Shown here piece by piece: positions 57,171 to 64,000 of a DNA stretch of 64,000 nucleotides. The position numbers and the translations under genes are program-made. Source of the DNA: Sphingobium sp. WTD-1 (GTDB taxonomy: Bacteria; Pseudomonadota; Alphaproteobacteria; Sphingomonadales; Sphingomonadaceae). The DNA lies in NCBI RefSeq assembly GCF_030128825.1, contig NZ_CP119127.1, forward strand, positions 2,666,001 through 2,730,000, in the 5' to 3' direction. Position 1 is the first letter of the stretch. Each line of letters starts with the position of its first letter. Under the pieces are notes generated by a model. It was given only the letters and a program-made list of their open reading frames with translations, was not told where the DNA came from and made no database searches.

Positions 57171-59846
57171 TTATTGGCGCAGACGCTCGATCGCCTGGGC
57201 AAGGGCGACATAGAGCTTGCCCATGTCGGACGAGAGGATGGCGACGCCCAGAGCATTGCCATCGCGCGCCGACAGGATGATCCGCAGCATCGCCTCGAAA
57301 TCGTGGATGTAGCGGTTCACATGCTCGCGGAAATCGGCGTCATTGTCGTAATGGAGCGCGATTTCGCGAGACTCGCCGGCGTCGAGCAGCTTGACCGCGC
57401 GACGGGTGAAGACGCCGCGATCGCCCTTGAGATAGGCCGACCAGTTGGTGTCGGTCACATCGTTGGACAGGATCTTGGCGACGTCGATCGCGGTGCTGTT
57501 GAGCGATTCGATCAGCAGGGCGGAGCGGCGCGAGAAATGGTCGCGGTCGCGTTCCTCGGCGGCGCGACCGCCTTCCTCGATCCGCTGTTCCAGCACGGCG
57601 CTGGTATCGGCGATCGTCATCAACTGGCGGGTCAGCCGGTCCGAGGCATTGTGCGCGGCGCGCACGGCCTCTTCCGCGACATCGGCCAGCTTCTCGATCT
57701 GGGCCGAAACCTGATCGCCGACCGCCTGCTGCATCGCCTGCTCGCTGGCTTCGGCCAGGTTCTGCACCGCGTCGGGGATGGCCCGGCCGAGCGCCTGACG
57801 GGCGCGCTCGGCGGCCTGTTCGGCGGTGTCCTTGACGCGGAGCAGCGCGGTGATGAGCAGCGGGCCGGCACCTTCGGTGATGCGGGTCGTGTCCTCATGC
57901 GCGGCGTCGAGCGCGGTGCGTAGCTTTTCCACCAGTTCGCGGTTGGATTCGATGCCGCTCTGGGTGCTTTCGAGCCATTCGGAGAGACGGCGACCCTGGC
58001 CGCGCAGCATCTCCTCGGCTTCCTGGGTGCGGCCGACCAGCGCTTCCGAAATGGCTTCCAGCCGTTCCAGCTCGGGCGTCGCGGCGCCCAGCATGGCGCG
58101 GCTGGTTTCCAGTCGGGCGTCGAAGCGGGCGAGCGCGCCGGGGTAGGTTTCGTCCAGTTCGCGTACGCTGGAGTCGAGCGCGACCATCAGCGTTTCGGCA
58201 TTGCCGATCAGCTTTTCGGCGGTGGTGCCGCCGTCATGCAGCGCCGTGTCGATCCGGCGGGTTTCCTCGGTCAGGCGGGTCAGCGCGTCGGTCAGCTTCT
58301 GGCTGCGGGCGAGGGCATTATCCTCCAGCGCGGCAAAGCGGGCCTCGGCCTGGTCGATCGTCTGGTTGAGCGTGCCGTGCAGCCCGGCCATCAGGCTGCG
58401 CTGTCCTTCGACCAGATCGTTAATCTGGTGCAGGCGGCTTTCGACTTCGCCAATATCGTCGGCAAGGCCGGCGACGGTATCGGTGCCGATCGCGGCGATG
58501 CTGTCGCGCGAGCGGGTGATGAGGCTGTCGAGCGCACCGGCCTGATCGCGCAGCCCGGCATCGGTCAGAGCGAGCGTTTCGCGGGCCTGAAGCAGGGTGG
58601 CGTCGAGCCGCTGGCGCAGATCGTCCTCGATCGAGCCGAGATCCTGACCCAGCGCAGCGAGCGCATTCTGGCTGGTGGCGGTGATGCTGGCCTGGGCACG
58701 GGCGACCAGCGCCTCCAGCGTGGCGCGCTGGGTCGAAAGTCCTTCCTGCGCGCGCTCCATCGTGTCGCGCACCTGATCCATCGAGGTTTCGAGGCGACCG
58801 CGCAGCGATGCCTCGACCAGATCGAGATCCTGGGTGAGGGCGCGGACCGCGCCGTCGCTGGTTTCGCCGAGCGACAGGGCGACGCGGCTGACCAGCGCCT
58901 CCAGCGCGGCCGACTGCGTATCGATATCCTGCCGGGTCTGCTCCATCGCGGCCCGCGCGCTCTGCGCCGATGTCTCGATCCGCCCGGCGGCGATGTCGGC
59001 CAGGCCGTTCACCTCGTCGGTGGCGCTGCGGGTCGTCTCCTGCAACTGGCCAAGCTGGCTCGACAGGCTCTTGGTCGCGGACAGGGTGCGGGTGCGGGTG
59101 TCGTCGGACAGTTCGCCCAGCGCGTGGAGACGCGCTTCGAGCGTGTCGATCCGTTCGGCCAGCGCATGGCCATTGTCCATGATCTGCGCGGCCATGCGCA
59201 CGGATCGTTCTTCGAGCTGCGGCATGGCGGCGATCAGCGCGTCCATCCGTGCGACCAGGGCGGTGCCGGCCCGCTCGGCGCTTTCGGCGCGATCGGCGGT
59301 GGTCTGGGCGCGGCCGGCGATCAGTTCGGCCGATGCCTCCATATTGCTGCTGGCGGCGGCGCCATAGCTGTCGAGCAGTTCGGCCTGATCCTGCATCGTC
59401 TGGCGTGCGGATTCGAGCCGGTCGGCGATCCGGCCGAGGCGCAGTTCGAGCAGTTCGGCCTCGGTCCGCAGCGCATGGGCGGTATCGAGATAGCGGCGGG
59501 ATTCGGCGCGGCTGTTACGCACGATCAGCAGATAGGCGATGCCGAGCAGGCTGATCGGCACCAGCAGCGTGGCGACGAGCGCGGGCCAGGCGGCCGGGCC
59601 GGCCCGCCACTGATCCGATACGATCGTTGCCCAGAGCGCGAAGCCGAGCCAGAGCGCGGCCAGCAGGCCGAGCCCGATCCGGGCATTGCGCACCAGCTTT
59701 TCGCCTTCCCCCTGCGCGTCGTCAGGGGCATCATCAATGTCCAGTACGGCCTGCTTCAATAGCAGGATGTCATCCGCGGCCGGCGCGTTGCCGGTCGCGT
59801 TTCCCTCGTCTCGCCAGAATTCGACGATTGTGCTGCCCCCATTCAT
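57171..59846 (-). CDS. giant membrane-anchored coiled-coil protein (891 residues)
   Basis: An N-terminal cytoplasmic stretch of about 50 residues is followed by two hydrophobic segments (about 55-75 and 86-108), then some 650 residues of almost unbroken helical heptads rich in Ala, Glu, Arg and Gln, and a conserved C-terminal module of about 120 residues (SAYLKGDRGVFTRRAVKLL, then NRYIHDFEAMLRIIL). The layout is similar in size and order to the polarity factor TipN of Caulobacter, but I cannot confirm homology. No catalytic motif is seen. It is divergent from the Hpt-like gene (81 bases apart). Confidence 0.8.
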   Translation of the reverse strand: MNGGSTIVEFWRDEGNATGNAPAADDILLLKQAVLDIDDAPDDAQGEGEKLVRNARIGLGLLAALWLGFALWATIVSDQWRAGPAAWPALVATLLVPISLLGIAYLLIVRNSRAESRRYLDTAHALRTEAELLELRLGRIADRLESARQTMQDQAELLDSYGAAASSNMEASAELIAGRAQTTADRAESAERAGTALVARMDALIAAMPQLEERSVRMAAQIMDNGHALAERIDTLEARLHALGELSDDTRTRTLSATKSLSSQLGQLQETTRSATDEVNGLADIAAGRIETSAQSARAAMEQTRQDIDTQSAALEALVSRVALSLGETSDGAVRALTQDLDLVEASLRGRLETSMDQVRDTMERAQEGLSTQRATLEALVARAQASITATSQNALAALGQDLGSIEDDLRQRLDATLLQARETLALTDAGLRDQAGALDSLITRSRDSIAAIGTDTVAGLADDIGEVESRLHQINDLVEGQRSLMAGLHGTLNQTIDQAEARFAALEDNALARSQKLTDALTRLTEETRRIDTALHDGGTTAEKLIGNAETLMVALDSSVRELDETYPGALARFDARLETSRAMLGAATPELERLEAISEALVGRTQEAEEMLRGQGRRLSEWLESTQSGIESNRELVEKLRTALDAAHEDTTRITEGAGPLLITALLRVKDTAEQAAERARQALGRAIPDAVQNLAEASEQAMQQAVGDQVSAQIEKLADVAEEAVRAAHNASDRLTRQLMTIADTSAVLEQRIEEGGRAAEERDRDHFSRRSALLIESLNSTAIDVAKILSNDVTDTNWSAYLKGDRGVFTRRAVKLLDAGESREIALHYDNDADFREHVNRYIHDFEAMLRIILSARDGNALGVAILSSDMGKLYVALAQAIERLRQ

Positions 59847-59927
59847 GGGTGTGATCCTATCATCTTTTCCGTCTGCGCAAATGCCTTGTTACCAAAACTT
59901 AACGCAATTTCGATAGCTTCCGTCCCC

Positions 59928-60230
59928 ATGTCCTATGATCCTGGCGCTCTTAATGCGGCATTGGCCGCCGCCGTCGGCGAAGACGCGGTGCTGATCGCCG
60001 ATCTGCGCGTGGCTTTCCTTGAAAGCGCAGAGCGCCATCTCGACCTGATGAGCCGGGCGCGCTGCGACGCCAATTGGGAATTGGCGGCCTGGCGTTTGAA
60101 AGGTCTGGCGGCGAGTTTCGGCCTGACCAGCCTGATGGCGCTGGCGGACGAGGCGGTCGAGGCCGCGCCGGGCGATCCGCGCGTCTTGCAGCGTTTGCGC
60201 AGCACGATCGCGCTGTTGCAGCAGGGCTGA
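59928..60230 (+). CDS. Hpt-like protein lacking the phospho-accepting histidine
   Basis: A 100-residue helical protein with the Hpt signature WRLKGLAASFGL at residues 55-66. The canonical motif has His before the x-Leu-Lys-Gly; here that position is Trp55 (codon TGG at 60090). Helix ends with VLQRLRSTIALLQQG. A catalytic phosphotransfer role is therefore unlikely, and it may act as a decoy or adaptor. ATG at 59928 is used. Two His residues elsewhere (His37) do not fit the Hpt geometry. Confidence 0.78.
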   Translation: MSYDPGALNAALAAAVGEDAVLIADLRVAFLESAERHLDLMSRARCDANWELAAWRLKGLAASFGLTSLMALADEAVEAAPGDPRVLQRLRSTIALLQQG

Positions 60231-60331
60231 CCGACGGCTTGAAACCGGCGATTTGAAAGCACCTGCTTGCGCTGCGTCGTTCGGCTTGCAAGAAGATCGT
60301 CGCAATCAAAACGGGTCGGTTTCCAGACAAT

Positions 60332-61504
60332 ATGACATTCGCGGCCATTCTCAGTGCCAGCCGGGCTTCAAGTGATTCGCCTGCAGCGCTTCGCGCTACC
60401 CTGCATTTCGCCGGCCAGACGCTGGTCGAATATCAGGCGCGACAGGCGGTCCGGGCCGGTGCGGACCGGATCATGATCCTGGTCAGCGTCATCACGCCGG
60501 CCATTTCGCAGGCGGTCGATCGGCTGAGCGCGGACGGCATTGCGGTCGCCCTGATCCGCGACATGGTGTCGATGGTGCGCGATGCGCCACGCGATGCCGA
60601 TGTGCTACTGGTGGCCGATGGCGCGGTGGTGGCACAGGGCCATTATGATGCGCTGGCGGGGCAGGCGGGCAATGCTTTGCTTGTCACCGACGACAGCCGC
60701 GCCAGCGCGCCGTTCGAGCGCATTGACGCAGGCCAGCGCTGGGCCGGGCTGGCGCGGATCAATCCGGCGCTGCTGTTCGGCACGCTGGACATGATCGGCG
60801 ACTGGGATCTGGCGCTGACGCTGGTGCGATCGGCGGTGCAGGGCGGTGCGGTGCGAATCACCGTGCCGCAGGATGATCTGCTGGAAGGCCGAGTCGCGCT
60901 GGTCGACGGGCAGGAACAGGCGGACCTGGCCGCGCAGGCGGTGATGTCGACCGGGACGCGGTCGGGATCGTCCAGCCGCGGCGGGATCGAACATTATCTG
61001 TTCGGGCCGCTGGCCCGGCTGCTCGGCCCAGCGCTGATGCGCAGCCAGGTGCCGGCAATGCAGGTGCGGATCGGTTCGATCGCGCTGGCCGGCATTGCGC
61101 TGATGCCGCTGGAACTGGGCTGGCCGGGCGCCGGGCTCAGCCTGTTGCTGCTCGCCCTGCTGCTGGCGGAATTGGCCGATCGGCTCGATGAAATGGCGCT
61201 GCGCCGGCCGCCGAGCGGCTGGATCGCCTTTCTGGCGCCGGGGCTGGCGCTGATCGGGGTGATGCTGTCGGGCAGCGGGATGGTGCCAAACTATCTGGCG
61301 CTGCTGTTGGGCATCATCACGGTTGCCGATCGCTGGCGCCGGACCGGGGCAGCGCGCCCCTGGATGATCTTCACGCCGGGCACCGCGCTTTCGGTGCTGC
61401 TGGCAGCCCTGCTGACGGGCGCGGAGGCACTTGGTTTCGACGTTGCGATGCTTGCGGCAATCGGATCAATCGGGGCGATCATCCTGTCGCGTCGGGGCGG
61501 ATGA
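60332..61504 (+). CDS. membrane protein with nucleotidyltransferase-like N-terminus
   Basis: A 390-residue protein. The N-terminal 200 residues contain FAGQTLVEYQARQAVRAGAD near residue 26, VLLVADGAVV near residue 90 and a DGxxx-like layout that resembles NTP-transferase (MobA/CofC) folds, although the metal-binding residues are not clearly conserved. The C-terminal 160 residues have five to six hydrophobic segments. This could be a membrane-bound nucleotide-sugar or phospholipid-type enzyme or a sensor. No known family is assigned. Follows the Hpt-like gene on the same strand by 101 bases. Confidence 0.6.
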   Translation: MTFAAILSASRASSDSPAALRATLHFAGQTLVEYQARQAVRAGADRIMILVSVITPAISQAVDRLSADGIAVALIRDMVSMVRDAPRDADVLLVADGAVVAQGHYDALAGQAGNALLVTDDSRASAPFERIDAGQRWAGLARINPALLFGTLDMIGDWDLALTLVRSAVQGGAVRITVPQDDLLEGRVALVDGQEQADLAAQAVMSTGTRSGSSSRGGIEHYLFGPLARLLGPALMRSQVPAMQVRIGSIALAGIALMPLELGWPGAGLSLLLLALLLAELADRLDEMALRRPPSGWIAFLAPGLALIGVMLSGSGMVPNYLALLLGIITVADRWRRTGAARPWMIFTPGTALSVLLAALLTGAEALGFDVAMLAAIGSIGAIILSRRGG

Positions 61505-61569
61505 TTTTTGTCGCTCCGCGACGCGTGAATTTGCTTTCAGGGTTTAGTGCATTTTAACGACGTGGGGTT

Positions 61570-62667
61570 ATGCTGCCTTGCATGAGCGCCCACACGTCCC
61601 TTGCCGGATCCATCATGGCGGACAGCTGGCCCATGGCACATGTCATGGCCGGCATGTCGGCCGTGCCCGTCGGCCATGCGATTGATCTCGCCTTTTTCTT
61701 CCCGGTCGAGGACCGGGCGCGCCATGATGCGCTGATCGCCGGGACGCGCCGTCATCTGGGCGGATGCCTGACCGCGATCGAGACCGCGCTGCGGCTGAGC
61801 CTGGCAGGCGATCCTGCAATTGCCGCCGCGCTGGGGCGTTGGCCCGATGGGTTGTGCTGGCCGACCATCTGTGCGCAGCCGACCCTGCTGGGGCCGGCCC
61901 TGCTGGCCCATATGCAGATGCGCGCGGGGGTGAGCCTGTTGCTGCGGCAGATCGGGCGCCCCGATGGCGAGCCGCCGGAACAGCCCGAGGCCGAATCGAT
62001 CCTGTCGTCGGACGATCCCGAAATTGGCGATGCGATCGTCGCGCTGGCGCTGGCCGAGGGGCAGTGGCAGGCGATGGGGGGCGAGGATCAGCCGATGCGC
62101 CCCGATCTGCCGGCCGAACATTTCGCCGAACTGGTGTGGACGGCGGCCGCCTGTCTGGCGGCGGTGGTGCAGCGGACCGCGCTGGAGCCCGACAATCAAT
62201 TGCTCGGCGCGTTCGAGCGGGCGGGCTGGGCACTGCTCGCCAGCCATGACGAAAGCAATGGCCCGATCGCGGCCGCCGACCAACTGGTGCGCCGATTGGG
62301 ACCGCAGGCCGATGCGCCTGACCTTCTGGGCGCGGCGCTGGGGCAGCGGCGTTTCCTGCTGTTCGCGGCGCTGGCTGGGCGACGGCTGCGCCTCGGCACC
62401 GCACAGGTGACGGACATATTGATCATGGGGCCGGTGATGCAGGTGGCGACACTGTGCCGGGCGCTGGGCGGAACCGGGGCGGATTATCGACATCTGCTGC
62501 TGGCGCTGCGGCCGGTGCGGCCGGGCCTGTCCGACGCGGTGATCGTGGCCGAGGCCGACCAATATCAATTGCTGAGCGATGGGAAGGCGGAAGCCGTGGT
62601 GGGCGCCTTGCGTGCGCCGGCCGCCTTCCGCGCGAAGCTGGATCATTTGCGGCGCGTCACGGGATGA
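61570..62667 (+). CDS. helical hypothetical protein (possibly DUF2336-like)
   Basis: A 365-residue protein, mainly alanine- and leucine-rich helices without signal peptide. Its length and its position next to an atypical sensor kinase suggest DUF2336, a HEAT-like alphaproteobacterial family, but this is uncertain. Internal motifs include PDLPAEHFAELVWTAAACL near residue 178 and GAALGQRRFLLFAALAGRRL near residue 258. Its stop overlaps the kinase start (ATGA), so they are translated together. Confidence 0.6.
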   Translation: MLPCMSAHTSLAGSIMADSWPMAHVMAGMSAVPVGHAIDLAFFFPVEDRARHDALIAGTRRHLGGCLTAIETALRLSLAGDPAIAAALGRWPDGLCWPTICAQPTLLGPALLAHMQMRAGVSLLLRQIGRPDGEPPEQPEAESILSSDDPEIGDAIVALALAEGQWQAMGGEDQPMRPDLPAEHFAELVWTAAACLAAVVQRTALEPDNQLLGAFERAGWALLASHDESNGPIAAADQLVRRLGPQADAPDLLGAALGQRRFLLFAALAGRRLRLGTAQVTDILIMGPVMQVATLCRALGGTGADYRHLLLALRPVRPGLSDAVIVAEADQYQLLSDGKAEAVVGALRAPAAFRAKLDHLRRVTG

Positions 62668-64000
62668 ACATGACGCTCCACCCCTCCATTGTCCGGGCGA
62701 CGGCATCGGCGGACGGCACGCTTCTGAGTGCCGACGCGCCGCTGCTTGCCCTGCAACGGGAGGCGGGGAGTGATCTGCTGGGGCCGCTCGCCATTCCGCA
62801 ACTGGCCGCCGTGGTGCGGCTGGCGGCGCGGCTGGGTGTCACCGTATCGCGTCCTGTAGTCGCGGCGGCCGAGCGGGGCGATATCGACATGTGGGTGCGG
62901 GCGCGCAGCGACGAAGGGCCGGACGGACGCATCGTGTCGCTGGCGGTGGTCGACTGGAACGAGCGGCCGCCGCTCGCCAATGCCGGTGACCATAGCCGGC
63001 GCGAGGCCGACCTGGCGGCGCTGGCCGATGGCTGGACCTGGCAGATCGACACCCAGTTGCAGTTCCAGATGGCGATTGCCGGGACCGACCGGCAGGGTGC
63101 ATTGCCGACGCAGCCGCCCCTGCCGGGCAGTCGTTTTTCCAGCTATTTCGAACTGCAGAGCGATGGCGAGGGCGACATGGCGATCCTGCGCGGCTTTACC
63201 CAGCGCCGCGCCTTCCGCGATCAGGTTGCGACACTCGTGCATGATCCCGAACAGCATGTGCGGCTGGCGGGCTTTCCACTGTTCGACCTGGCCGGCCATC
63301 TGGTCGGCTATCGCGGCAAGGCCTGCCCGATCGAGCGGCCGCCGGCGCTGGCGCGGGCGGATATGACGCAATTGTCGCTCTATCCCGGCGAGTTCGGCAA
63401 GCGGCTTGATCGCTCGCTGCGTCAGCCGCTGGGGCGGATCATCGCCAATGCCGACACGATCGGCGCACAGCTGGAAGGGCCGTTGCGGCCCGATTATGCC
63501 GACTATGCCAATGATATCGCGACGGCCGGCCGTCACCTGATGGCGCTGGTCGACGATCTGGCGGATCTGCAGGCGATCGACCGACCCGATTTCGGCGTGA
63601 TCATCGAGGATGTCGACCTCGCGGACCTGGGCCGGCGGTCCGGCGGCCTGCTGACGGTCAAGGCGCTGGATCGGCACATCAAGATTCATTGCCCGGACGT
63701 CGATCAGGTGCTGATGGCGAAGGGCGAGTTCCGCCGTGTGCTGCAGATACTGGTCAATCTGGTCGGCAATGCGGTGCGTTATTCGCCCGAGGGATCGCAG
63801 GTCCGCATCGTCGTCGAGCGCGAGCATCGGCAGGCACGGGTGCTGGTGATCGACCAGGGGGCGGGCGTGGCGCTGGAGGATCGCGAGAAGATTTTCGACA
63901 AGTTCGAGCGACTGGGGCGCGACGATCCGGGCGGCAGCGGGCTTGGCCTCTATATCTCGCGCAAACTGGCGCGGGCGATGGGCGGCGACATCAGCATCGG
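62664..64000 (+). CDS. atypical sensor histidine kinase, H-box His missing (partial, runs off the window)
   Basis: At least 445 residues are in frame to the window end. An N-terminal region of about 230 residues of unknown fold precedes a DHp-like helix at about 240-300. The H-box reads DRSLRQPLGRI instead of HELRTPL-type, with Arg250 (codon CGC at 63411) where the phospho-His belongs. The ATP domain is intact: N-box NLVGNAVRYS near residue 365, DQGAGV, FDKFER and GSGLGLYIS near residue 427. It may be a pseudokinase, a phosphatase-only or an allosteric scaffold. Start overlaps the preceding stop. Confidence 0.85.
   Translation, partial: MNMTLHPSIVRATASADGTLLSADAPLLALQREAGSDLLGPLAIPQLAAVVRLAARLGVTVSRPVVAAAERGDIDMWVRARSDEGPDGRIVSLAVVDWNERPPLANAGDHSRREADLAALADGWTWQIDTQLQFQMAIAGTDRQGALPTQPPLPGSRFSSYFELQSDGEGDMAILRGFTQRRAFRDQVATLVHDPEQHVRLAGFPLFDLAGHLVGYRGKACPIERPPALARADMTQLSLYPGEFGKRLDRSLRQPLGRIIANADTIGAQLEGPLRPDYADYANDIATAGRHLMALVDDLADLQAIDRPDFGVIIEDVDLADLGRRSGGLLTVKALDRHIKIHCPDVDQVLMAKGEFRRVLQILVNLVGNAVRYSPEGSQVRIVVEREHRQARVLVIDQGAGVALEDREKIFDKFERLGRDDPGGSGLGLYISRKLARAMGGDISI

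Follow-up and report, generated by a model that had tools for sequence, protein, structure and literature searches.

Introduction

Two-component signaling proteins that have lost their phospho-histidine are already known singly, as pseudo-histidine kinases and as pseudo-Hpts (DivL, FimL and AHP6). DivL of Caulobacter is an alphaproteobacterial protein with a histidine-kinase fold and no phospho-histidine; as described in PMC4211667, it has neither kinase nor phosphatase activity and senses DivK~P. A preliminary description of the locus treated here had cited DivL as a precedent for a kinase without the histidine. FimL of Pseudomonas aeruginosa is polarly localised and contains bacterial Hpt-like domains that lack the histidine (PMC3019171), and AHP6 of Arabidopsis is described as an Hpt protein that has lost its histidine and inhibits its relay (PMC3572949). 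Here we describe a gene cluster at the end of a 64,000-nucleotide stretch of Sphingobium sp. WTD-1 (contig NZ_CP119127.1, positions 2,666,001 to 2,730,000; the window) that encodes an Hpt-like protein and a sensor histidine kinase, each without its phospho-histidine. What is new is the joint loss in one cluster across much of a family, the Sphingomonadaceae, with relatives that keep the chemistry.

Loss of the phospho-histidine in both proteins

The genus and family samples comprise 208 genomes, and in 164 of them the stretches examined contain one or more of the cluster proteins. The site residue was read in 132 kinases (six canonical and 126 others, termed non-canonical) and 84 Hpts; one further Hpt row, gapped at the site, was excluded from the counts. 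Where single genomes or stretches must be told apart, they are given G or L numbers. The two genes and the sites within them are as follows, in window positions.

59928..60230, + strand: pseudo-Hpt protein, 100 aa (Pfam Hpt, 23.5 bits)
60090..60092, + strand: Trp55 codon, phospho-histidine site of the Hpt-like protein, placed by translation and alignment
62664..64000 in the window, gene end 64055, + strand: pseudo-histidine kinase, 463 aa (HATPase_c, HisKA)
63411..63413, + strand: Arg250 codon, H-box histidine position of the kinase
63756..63782, + strand: kinase N box NLVGNAVRY, ATP site (N369 in 126/126 non-canonical kinases)
63852..63869, + strand: kinase G1 box DQGAGV (D397 and G399, 126/126)
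63933..63956, + strand: kinase G2 box GSGLGLYI (G424, G426 and G428, 126/126)

In the Hpt-like protein, residue 55 of 100 is Trp by translation (codon 60090-60092, ELAAWRLKGLAASFG), at the position where the phospho-accepting His of the Hpt family precedes x-Leu-Lys-Gly. The surrounding region aligns without gaps to canonical Hpts, and the Pfam match to Hpt (PF01627) lies slightly under the 24.6-bit cut-off. The four-helix fold of the family is predicted by a structure model that forms a helical bundle with a predicted local distance difference test score of 92, for which the top six Foldseek rows are all Hpt chains; a sequence search of the PDB with the Hpt profile returned a chance match alone (E 0.88). 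The site is non-His in 76 of the 84 proteins (Trp in 35, Leu and Met in 15 each, His in eight, Gln in six, and Tyr, Ala, Glu, Val and Phe once each). A conserved stretch precedes the lost His (RCDxNW in many proteins), Trp50 is invariant in a 42-row alignment, and the ratio of nonsynonymous to synonymous substitution rates (dN/dS) relative to the window genome is 0.10-0.22 over six chosen pairs.

In the kinase, residue 250 of 463 is Arg by translation (codon 63411-63413, FGKRLDRSLRQPLGRI), where the H-box of HisKA proteins has the phospho-His, and the acid at the following position (H+1) is replaced by Ser251. The HisKA match scores 25.4 bits against a cut-off of 26.9, and the HATPase_c match 74.9 bits against 26.4, with the N, G1, F and G2 boxes of the ATP-binding domain all present. 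Arg250 is not a sequencing slip: of the 61 genomes of the genus, 60 have the kinase, always with a residue other than His at the site. Among the 126 non-canonical kinases, the site is occupied by Arg (60), Pro (26), Gln (8), Ala (8), Leu (5), Thr (4), Lys (3), Glu (3), Asp (2), Gly (2) and, once each, Phe, Asn, Val, Ser and His; it is non-His in 125, and the single His, in G084, stands without the surrounding H-box. H+1 is Ala, Ser or Val in 120 (52, 47 and 21, respectively), with five residues found once each and one row not listed, and H+4 is Gln in 81 and Thr in only five. By contrast with the site itself, N369, A370, D397, G399, F411, G424, G426 and G428 are invariant in all 126, as anticipated by the preliminary description, which had noted that the ATP-binding boxes are kept. 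Arg258 is present in 119 of the 126 and is Ala in all six canonical kinases. The kinase dN/dS relative to the window genome is 0.04-0.39 over nine chosen pairs. In one genome, G196 (L274), the kinase is split across two neighbouring frames, which may reflect an error or a pseudogene.

Replacement histidines were considered for both proteins. Between kinase residues 225 and 330, H291 is the sole column with His in at least 15% of the kinases (125 of 126), but it is present in the six canonical kinases as well and was ruled out as ancestral. At the position of His37 in the Hpt-like protein, relatives mostly have Gln, as judged by eye. A hidden replacement His is rejected, and the earlier assignment of Trp55 and Arg to the two phospho-His sites is upheld. 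The proposal that Trp and Arg themselves might be conserved among sphingomonad homologues is not: both sites are variable, so that Trp and Arg are rejected as conserved functional residues, and the shared trait is the absence of His.

Joint loss across the Sphingomonadaceae

The kinase was found in 120 of 149 family genomes (E 1e-30), a few of them with the canonical form, and the Hpt in 95 of 149 (E 1e-4). Both sites could be read in 69 genomes, of which 62 have lost both histidines, four keep both, three keep the Hpt His only and none keeps the kinase His only. The two losses, which had been called unrelated, are therefore not so. According to PMC12632262, the phospho-His is missing in 0.9% of HisKA domains (722 of 76,471) and likewise in 0.9% of Hpt domains (90 of 10,312); given these rates and the retention across much of the family, two His losses in one cluster are no random draw. 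The published rate was used in place of one from the same genome, where a pattern for kinase H-boxes found the His in three of seven and was silent on four.

Canonical relatives and a possible order of loss

The relatives are compared with reference to the other genes of the cluster and to a gene downstream of it.

57171..59846, - strand: coiled-coil protein of 891 aa, TipN/GPR-like and membrane-anchored; its gene is divergent from that of the Hpt
60332..61504, + strand: co-clustered membrane protein (the middle protein), N-terminal part weakly nucleotidyltransferase-like
61570..62667, + strand: divergent DUF2336 protein, with a 4-base overlap with the kinase start (PF10098, 32.5 bits, below the cut-off of 34.6)
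L009, 8535-9845, - strand: citrate synthase, downstream of the kinase

In six family genomes (G067, G072, G100, G112, G116 and G144), the same kinase, again next to DUF2336, retains an intact SHELRTPL box, so that His, Glu and Thr stand at positions 0, +1 and +4. The Glu and the Thr serve the phosphatase reaction. Where both proteins could be read in these genomes, both histidines are present (4/4). In a FastTree phylogeny of the joined kinase, middle and coiled-coil proteins (85 genomes), one branch parts the six from the rest with support of 0.999, and the same split is obtained at 0.982 from the kinase alone without the H-box (84 genomes, G158 excluded). This split has no direction by itself. 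The six are best read as the ancestral form, because His is the usual residue of these domains and is also what other Alphaproteobacteria have in their Hpts: outside the family samples, all 12 Hpts (12/12) identified next to the coiled-coil gene carry it, among them that of Kordiimonas laminariae (L283). Of these 12, eight are from class genomes that belong to other families, two from Kordiimonadaceae records and two from metagenome-assembled genomes of unstated family; in five, adjacency was taken from coordinates, with the coiled-coil gene beyond the piece, and in one set 5 of the 20 stretches examined contained such an Hpt. Relatives with His at both sites, which had been named in advance as grounds for refutation, do exist; in the kinase trees they lie together, one branch apart from the rest.

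A receiver gene is found in the neighbourhood of four of the six canonical genomes and in Kordiimonas; it follows the Hpt gene in G067, G100 and G116, and is also present in G112, in which the Hpt was not found. In all of these the phospho-Asp of the receiver is Asn. A wider receiver scan, whose pattern favoured the Asn form, gave Asn in 10 and Asp in 9 more distant loci of the 19 examined out of 22. No receiver gene was found in G144, in G072 (a short piece) or in any derived locus. A loss order of receiver, kinase and Hpt fits these distributions, with few genomes behind the order. In L237, L249, L190, L192 and L277-L286 a receiver gene of this neighbourhood has SNW (Asn at the phospho-Asp), and the next gene is a further Hpt-like one, with the motif AH[DEN][LM]KGQGGTF; the receiver is thus a pseudo-receiver in an otherwise catalytic-looking cluster.

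Neighbouring genes

The coiled-coil protein has a C-terminal domain that occurs in 147 of the 149 family genomes, in 142 of the 385 genomes of the class sample and, in a different alphaproteobacterium, in an open frame of 2121 aa (L301). Hydropathy peaks mark two hydrophobic segments, 55-73 and 91-109, as in the paired N-terminal transmembrane helices of TipN, GPR and RgsE, and the protein has an apolipoprotein similarity of 31.9 bits (PF01442), well under the cut-off of 90. Two N-terminal membrane segments and apolipoprotein-like helices are described for GPR and RgsE (PMC8262873, PMC7327166), and GPR and TipN are called analogous (PMC13170164). On these grounds the cluster products may form a polar complex. 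Of the 85 genomes in which sufficient sequence was available, 66 have citrate synthase downstream of the kinase. Both this enzyme and TipN are reported to bear on the G1-S step in Caulobacter (PMC7083601), and the link to the kinase cluster is suggestive only.

The kinase gene runs 55 bases beyond the window end, and its full frame was read in L009. The middle protein has an NTP_transf_3 match at E 0.029 (15 bits, Pfam cut-off 27) and hydrophobic segments that start at residue 264, and could be a degenerate nucleotidyltransferase joined to membrane helices (60332-61504); its structure model is poor (score 55), and its best match in a sequence search of solved structures in the PDB has E 0.5. 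Among 14 named control genomes, DUF2336 (PF10098) matches in Caulobacter vibrioides alone, and G067 has six PF10098 matches, two of them overlapping.

A flagellar role alone for the cluster is unlikely. Of the 50 family genomes negative for flagellin (E 1e-8), 46 still have a kinase match, and a present-day flagellar role is weakened by the 46 of 120 kinase-positive family genomes that have no flagellin match; all six canonical genomes have one. By eye, flgK/flgL-like and Wzi-like genes were seen near the middle gene or the DUF2336-kinase pair of canonical-kinase genomes (L188, L190, L192, L193 and L237).

Interpretation and alternatives

The sequences show the descent of the two proteins, the loss of both histidines, the retained ATP-site residues and the gene neighbourhood, and they support well a loss of phosphotransfer chemistry; ATP binding and the lack of phosphotransfer in the proteins themselves are presumed. 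We consider it probable that a phosphorelay has turned into an ATP-binding, non-phosphorylating pair that acts through contacts between proteins, perhaps at the cell pole. The starting point would have been a functional kinase and a functional Hpt, both linked to a TipN/GPR-like gene. In an ancestor of most Sphingomonadaceae, the kinase would have lost its phospho-His, the following Glu and the usual H+4 Thr, and the Hpt would have lost its His as well, probably later. Both proteins would have stayed under selection with the kinase ATP pocket intact. The kinase would most likely be an ATP-gated dimer switch, and the Hpt a binding module, an adaptor or decoy that engages receiver domains or the kinase; we infer that the two bind each other as parts of an assembly anchored to the coiled-coil scaffold, with the pole as its probable site. 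As the ATP-site residues are kept without exception, ATP binding appears to be still important, as a switch, and the proteins look as if kept for binding and not like decaying genes. A non-phosphorylating pair under selection, as first proposed, is thus the best reading of the lost histidines, invariant ATP boxes and low dN/dS.

Several observations weigh against this explanation. His is present in eight of the 84 Hpts (G065, G067, G094, G100, G116, G144, G158 and G186), three of which (G094, G186 and G158) stand beside a His-less kinase, so that Hpt His loss is leaky or reversible; G094 (L108) and G186 (L102) are nested in the derived clade, where their His may have been regained or kept, and G158 corresponds to L239. 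For many genomes, no Hpt or no kinase turned up next to the coiled-coil gene, and a Pfam Hpt match at E 1 was obtained for only 29 of 42 Hpt-like proteins. The tree built from the middle and coiled-coil proteins of 71 genomes, among them five of the six, has no single split: it groups G072, G112, G116 and G144 with the non-His G077 (0.91; G077 and G144 pair at 0.36), while G067, which has a fragmentary middle protein, falls outside this group. DivL, the nearest precedent, is reported to bind ATP weakly, at 57 uM (PMC4211667), and the box pattern is therefore no proof of tight ATP binding. The proposed polarity leans on a neighbour gene whose function here is putative.

Of the alternatives, a DivL-like reader survives best, although we find it doubtful. 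Here the kinase would bind a phosphorylated response regulator and inform an active kinase by contact, with the Hpt as a side player, which comes close to a sub-case of the contact-based pair. Besides the properties of DivL itself, its structure (4q20) is fourth among the kinase sequence matches to solved structures (E 1.3e-14). However, the site residue varies freely in the sphingomonad kinases, whereas the DivL Tyr is modelled in the DivK~P contact (PMC4211667), and the receiver family of the early lineages was not found in derived loci.

It is improbable that the kinase still phosphorylates, be it another of its own residues or, in a heterodimer with an active kinase, the partner subunit. 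The invariant ATP site is what trans-phosphorylation of a His-bearing partner would require, but the H+1 Glu is gone, and residues 225-330 hold no new conserved His beside the ancestral H291. Slow decay of a useless relay would agree with the drifting site residues, the split G196 kinase and some genomes in which no Hpt or no kinase turned up next to the scaffold gene; it is very unlikely in view of the invariant ATP residues, dN/dS well below 1 and the newly common Arg258. Least likely of all is a kinase that acts as a phosphatase only: the conserved His is reported to be dispensable for HisKA phosphatase activity (PMC12632262), but the Glu and Thr of the six canonical kinases are gone, with Thr in 5/126.

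Returning to the contact-based pair, a more speculative extension, offered tentatively, is that a polarity-linked relay lost its chemistry stepwise (receiver Asp to Asn, receiver gene, kinase His, Hpt His) and would now be a phosphate-free, ATP-gated complex of pseudokinase, pseudo-Hpt and TipN-like scaffold, encoded next to citrate synthase, by which Sphingomonadaceae set their polarity or cell cycle. The Asn form of the receiver persists in some family genomes that keep both histidines. The relatives with both, one or no His, with ATP-site residues in every pseudokinase, form a natural series that is useful for studying the non-phosphate roles of two-component proteins and the purpose of a pseudokinase ATP site, and they draw attention to Hpt genes that neighbour TipN/GPR-like genes elsewhere in the Alphaproteobacteria. 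In literature searches that covered few subscription journals and preprints, and so give no proof of absence, no paper among those listed deals with an Hpt paired with TipN/GPR-like genes. Searches on TipN and GPR, on kinases of Sphingomonas/Sphingobium, on pseudo- or degenerate kinases and kinases without His, and on pseudo-Hpts or His-less Hpts likewise listed none on this cluster, and no paper contained DUF2336.

Comparison with known systems

The coiled-coil protein of the window, at 891 aa, is likened to TipN, GPR and RgsE by their described features. AHP6 is a plant protein that acts by competition, in a relay whose remaining members are still chemically active. FimL has two Hpt-like domains with Gln and is a relative of the ChpA N-terminus, whereas the window Hpt is a single 100-aa protein; the sections of PMC3019171 consulted mention no pseudokinase partner for FimL. 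DivL has Tyr at the site and weak ATP binding, and the sections of PMC4211667 consulted mention no pseudo-Hpt with it. By this residue the window kinase is not DivL: Arg stands at its site, and no Tyr occurs among the 126 non-canonical kinases, which have a free residue mix instead. Judged by the defining His, the Hpt and the kinase are not functional members of the Hpt and HisKA families, though their sequences descend from both. By analogy, the kinase may work like DivL, and the Hpt like FimL or AHP6, through contact instead of phosphotransfer.

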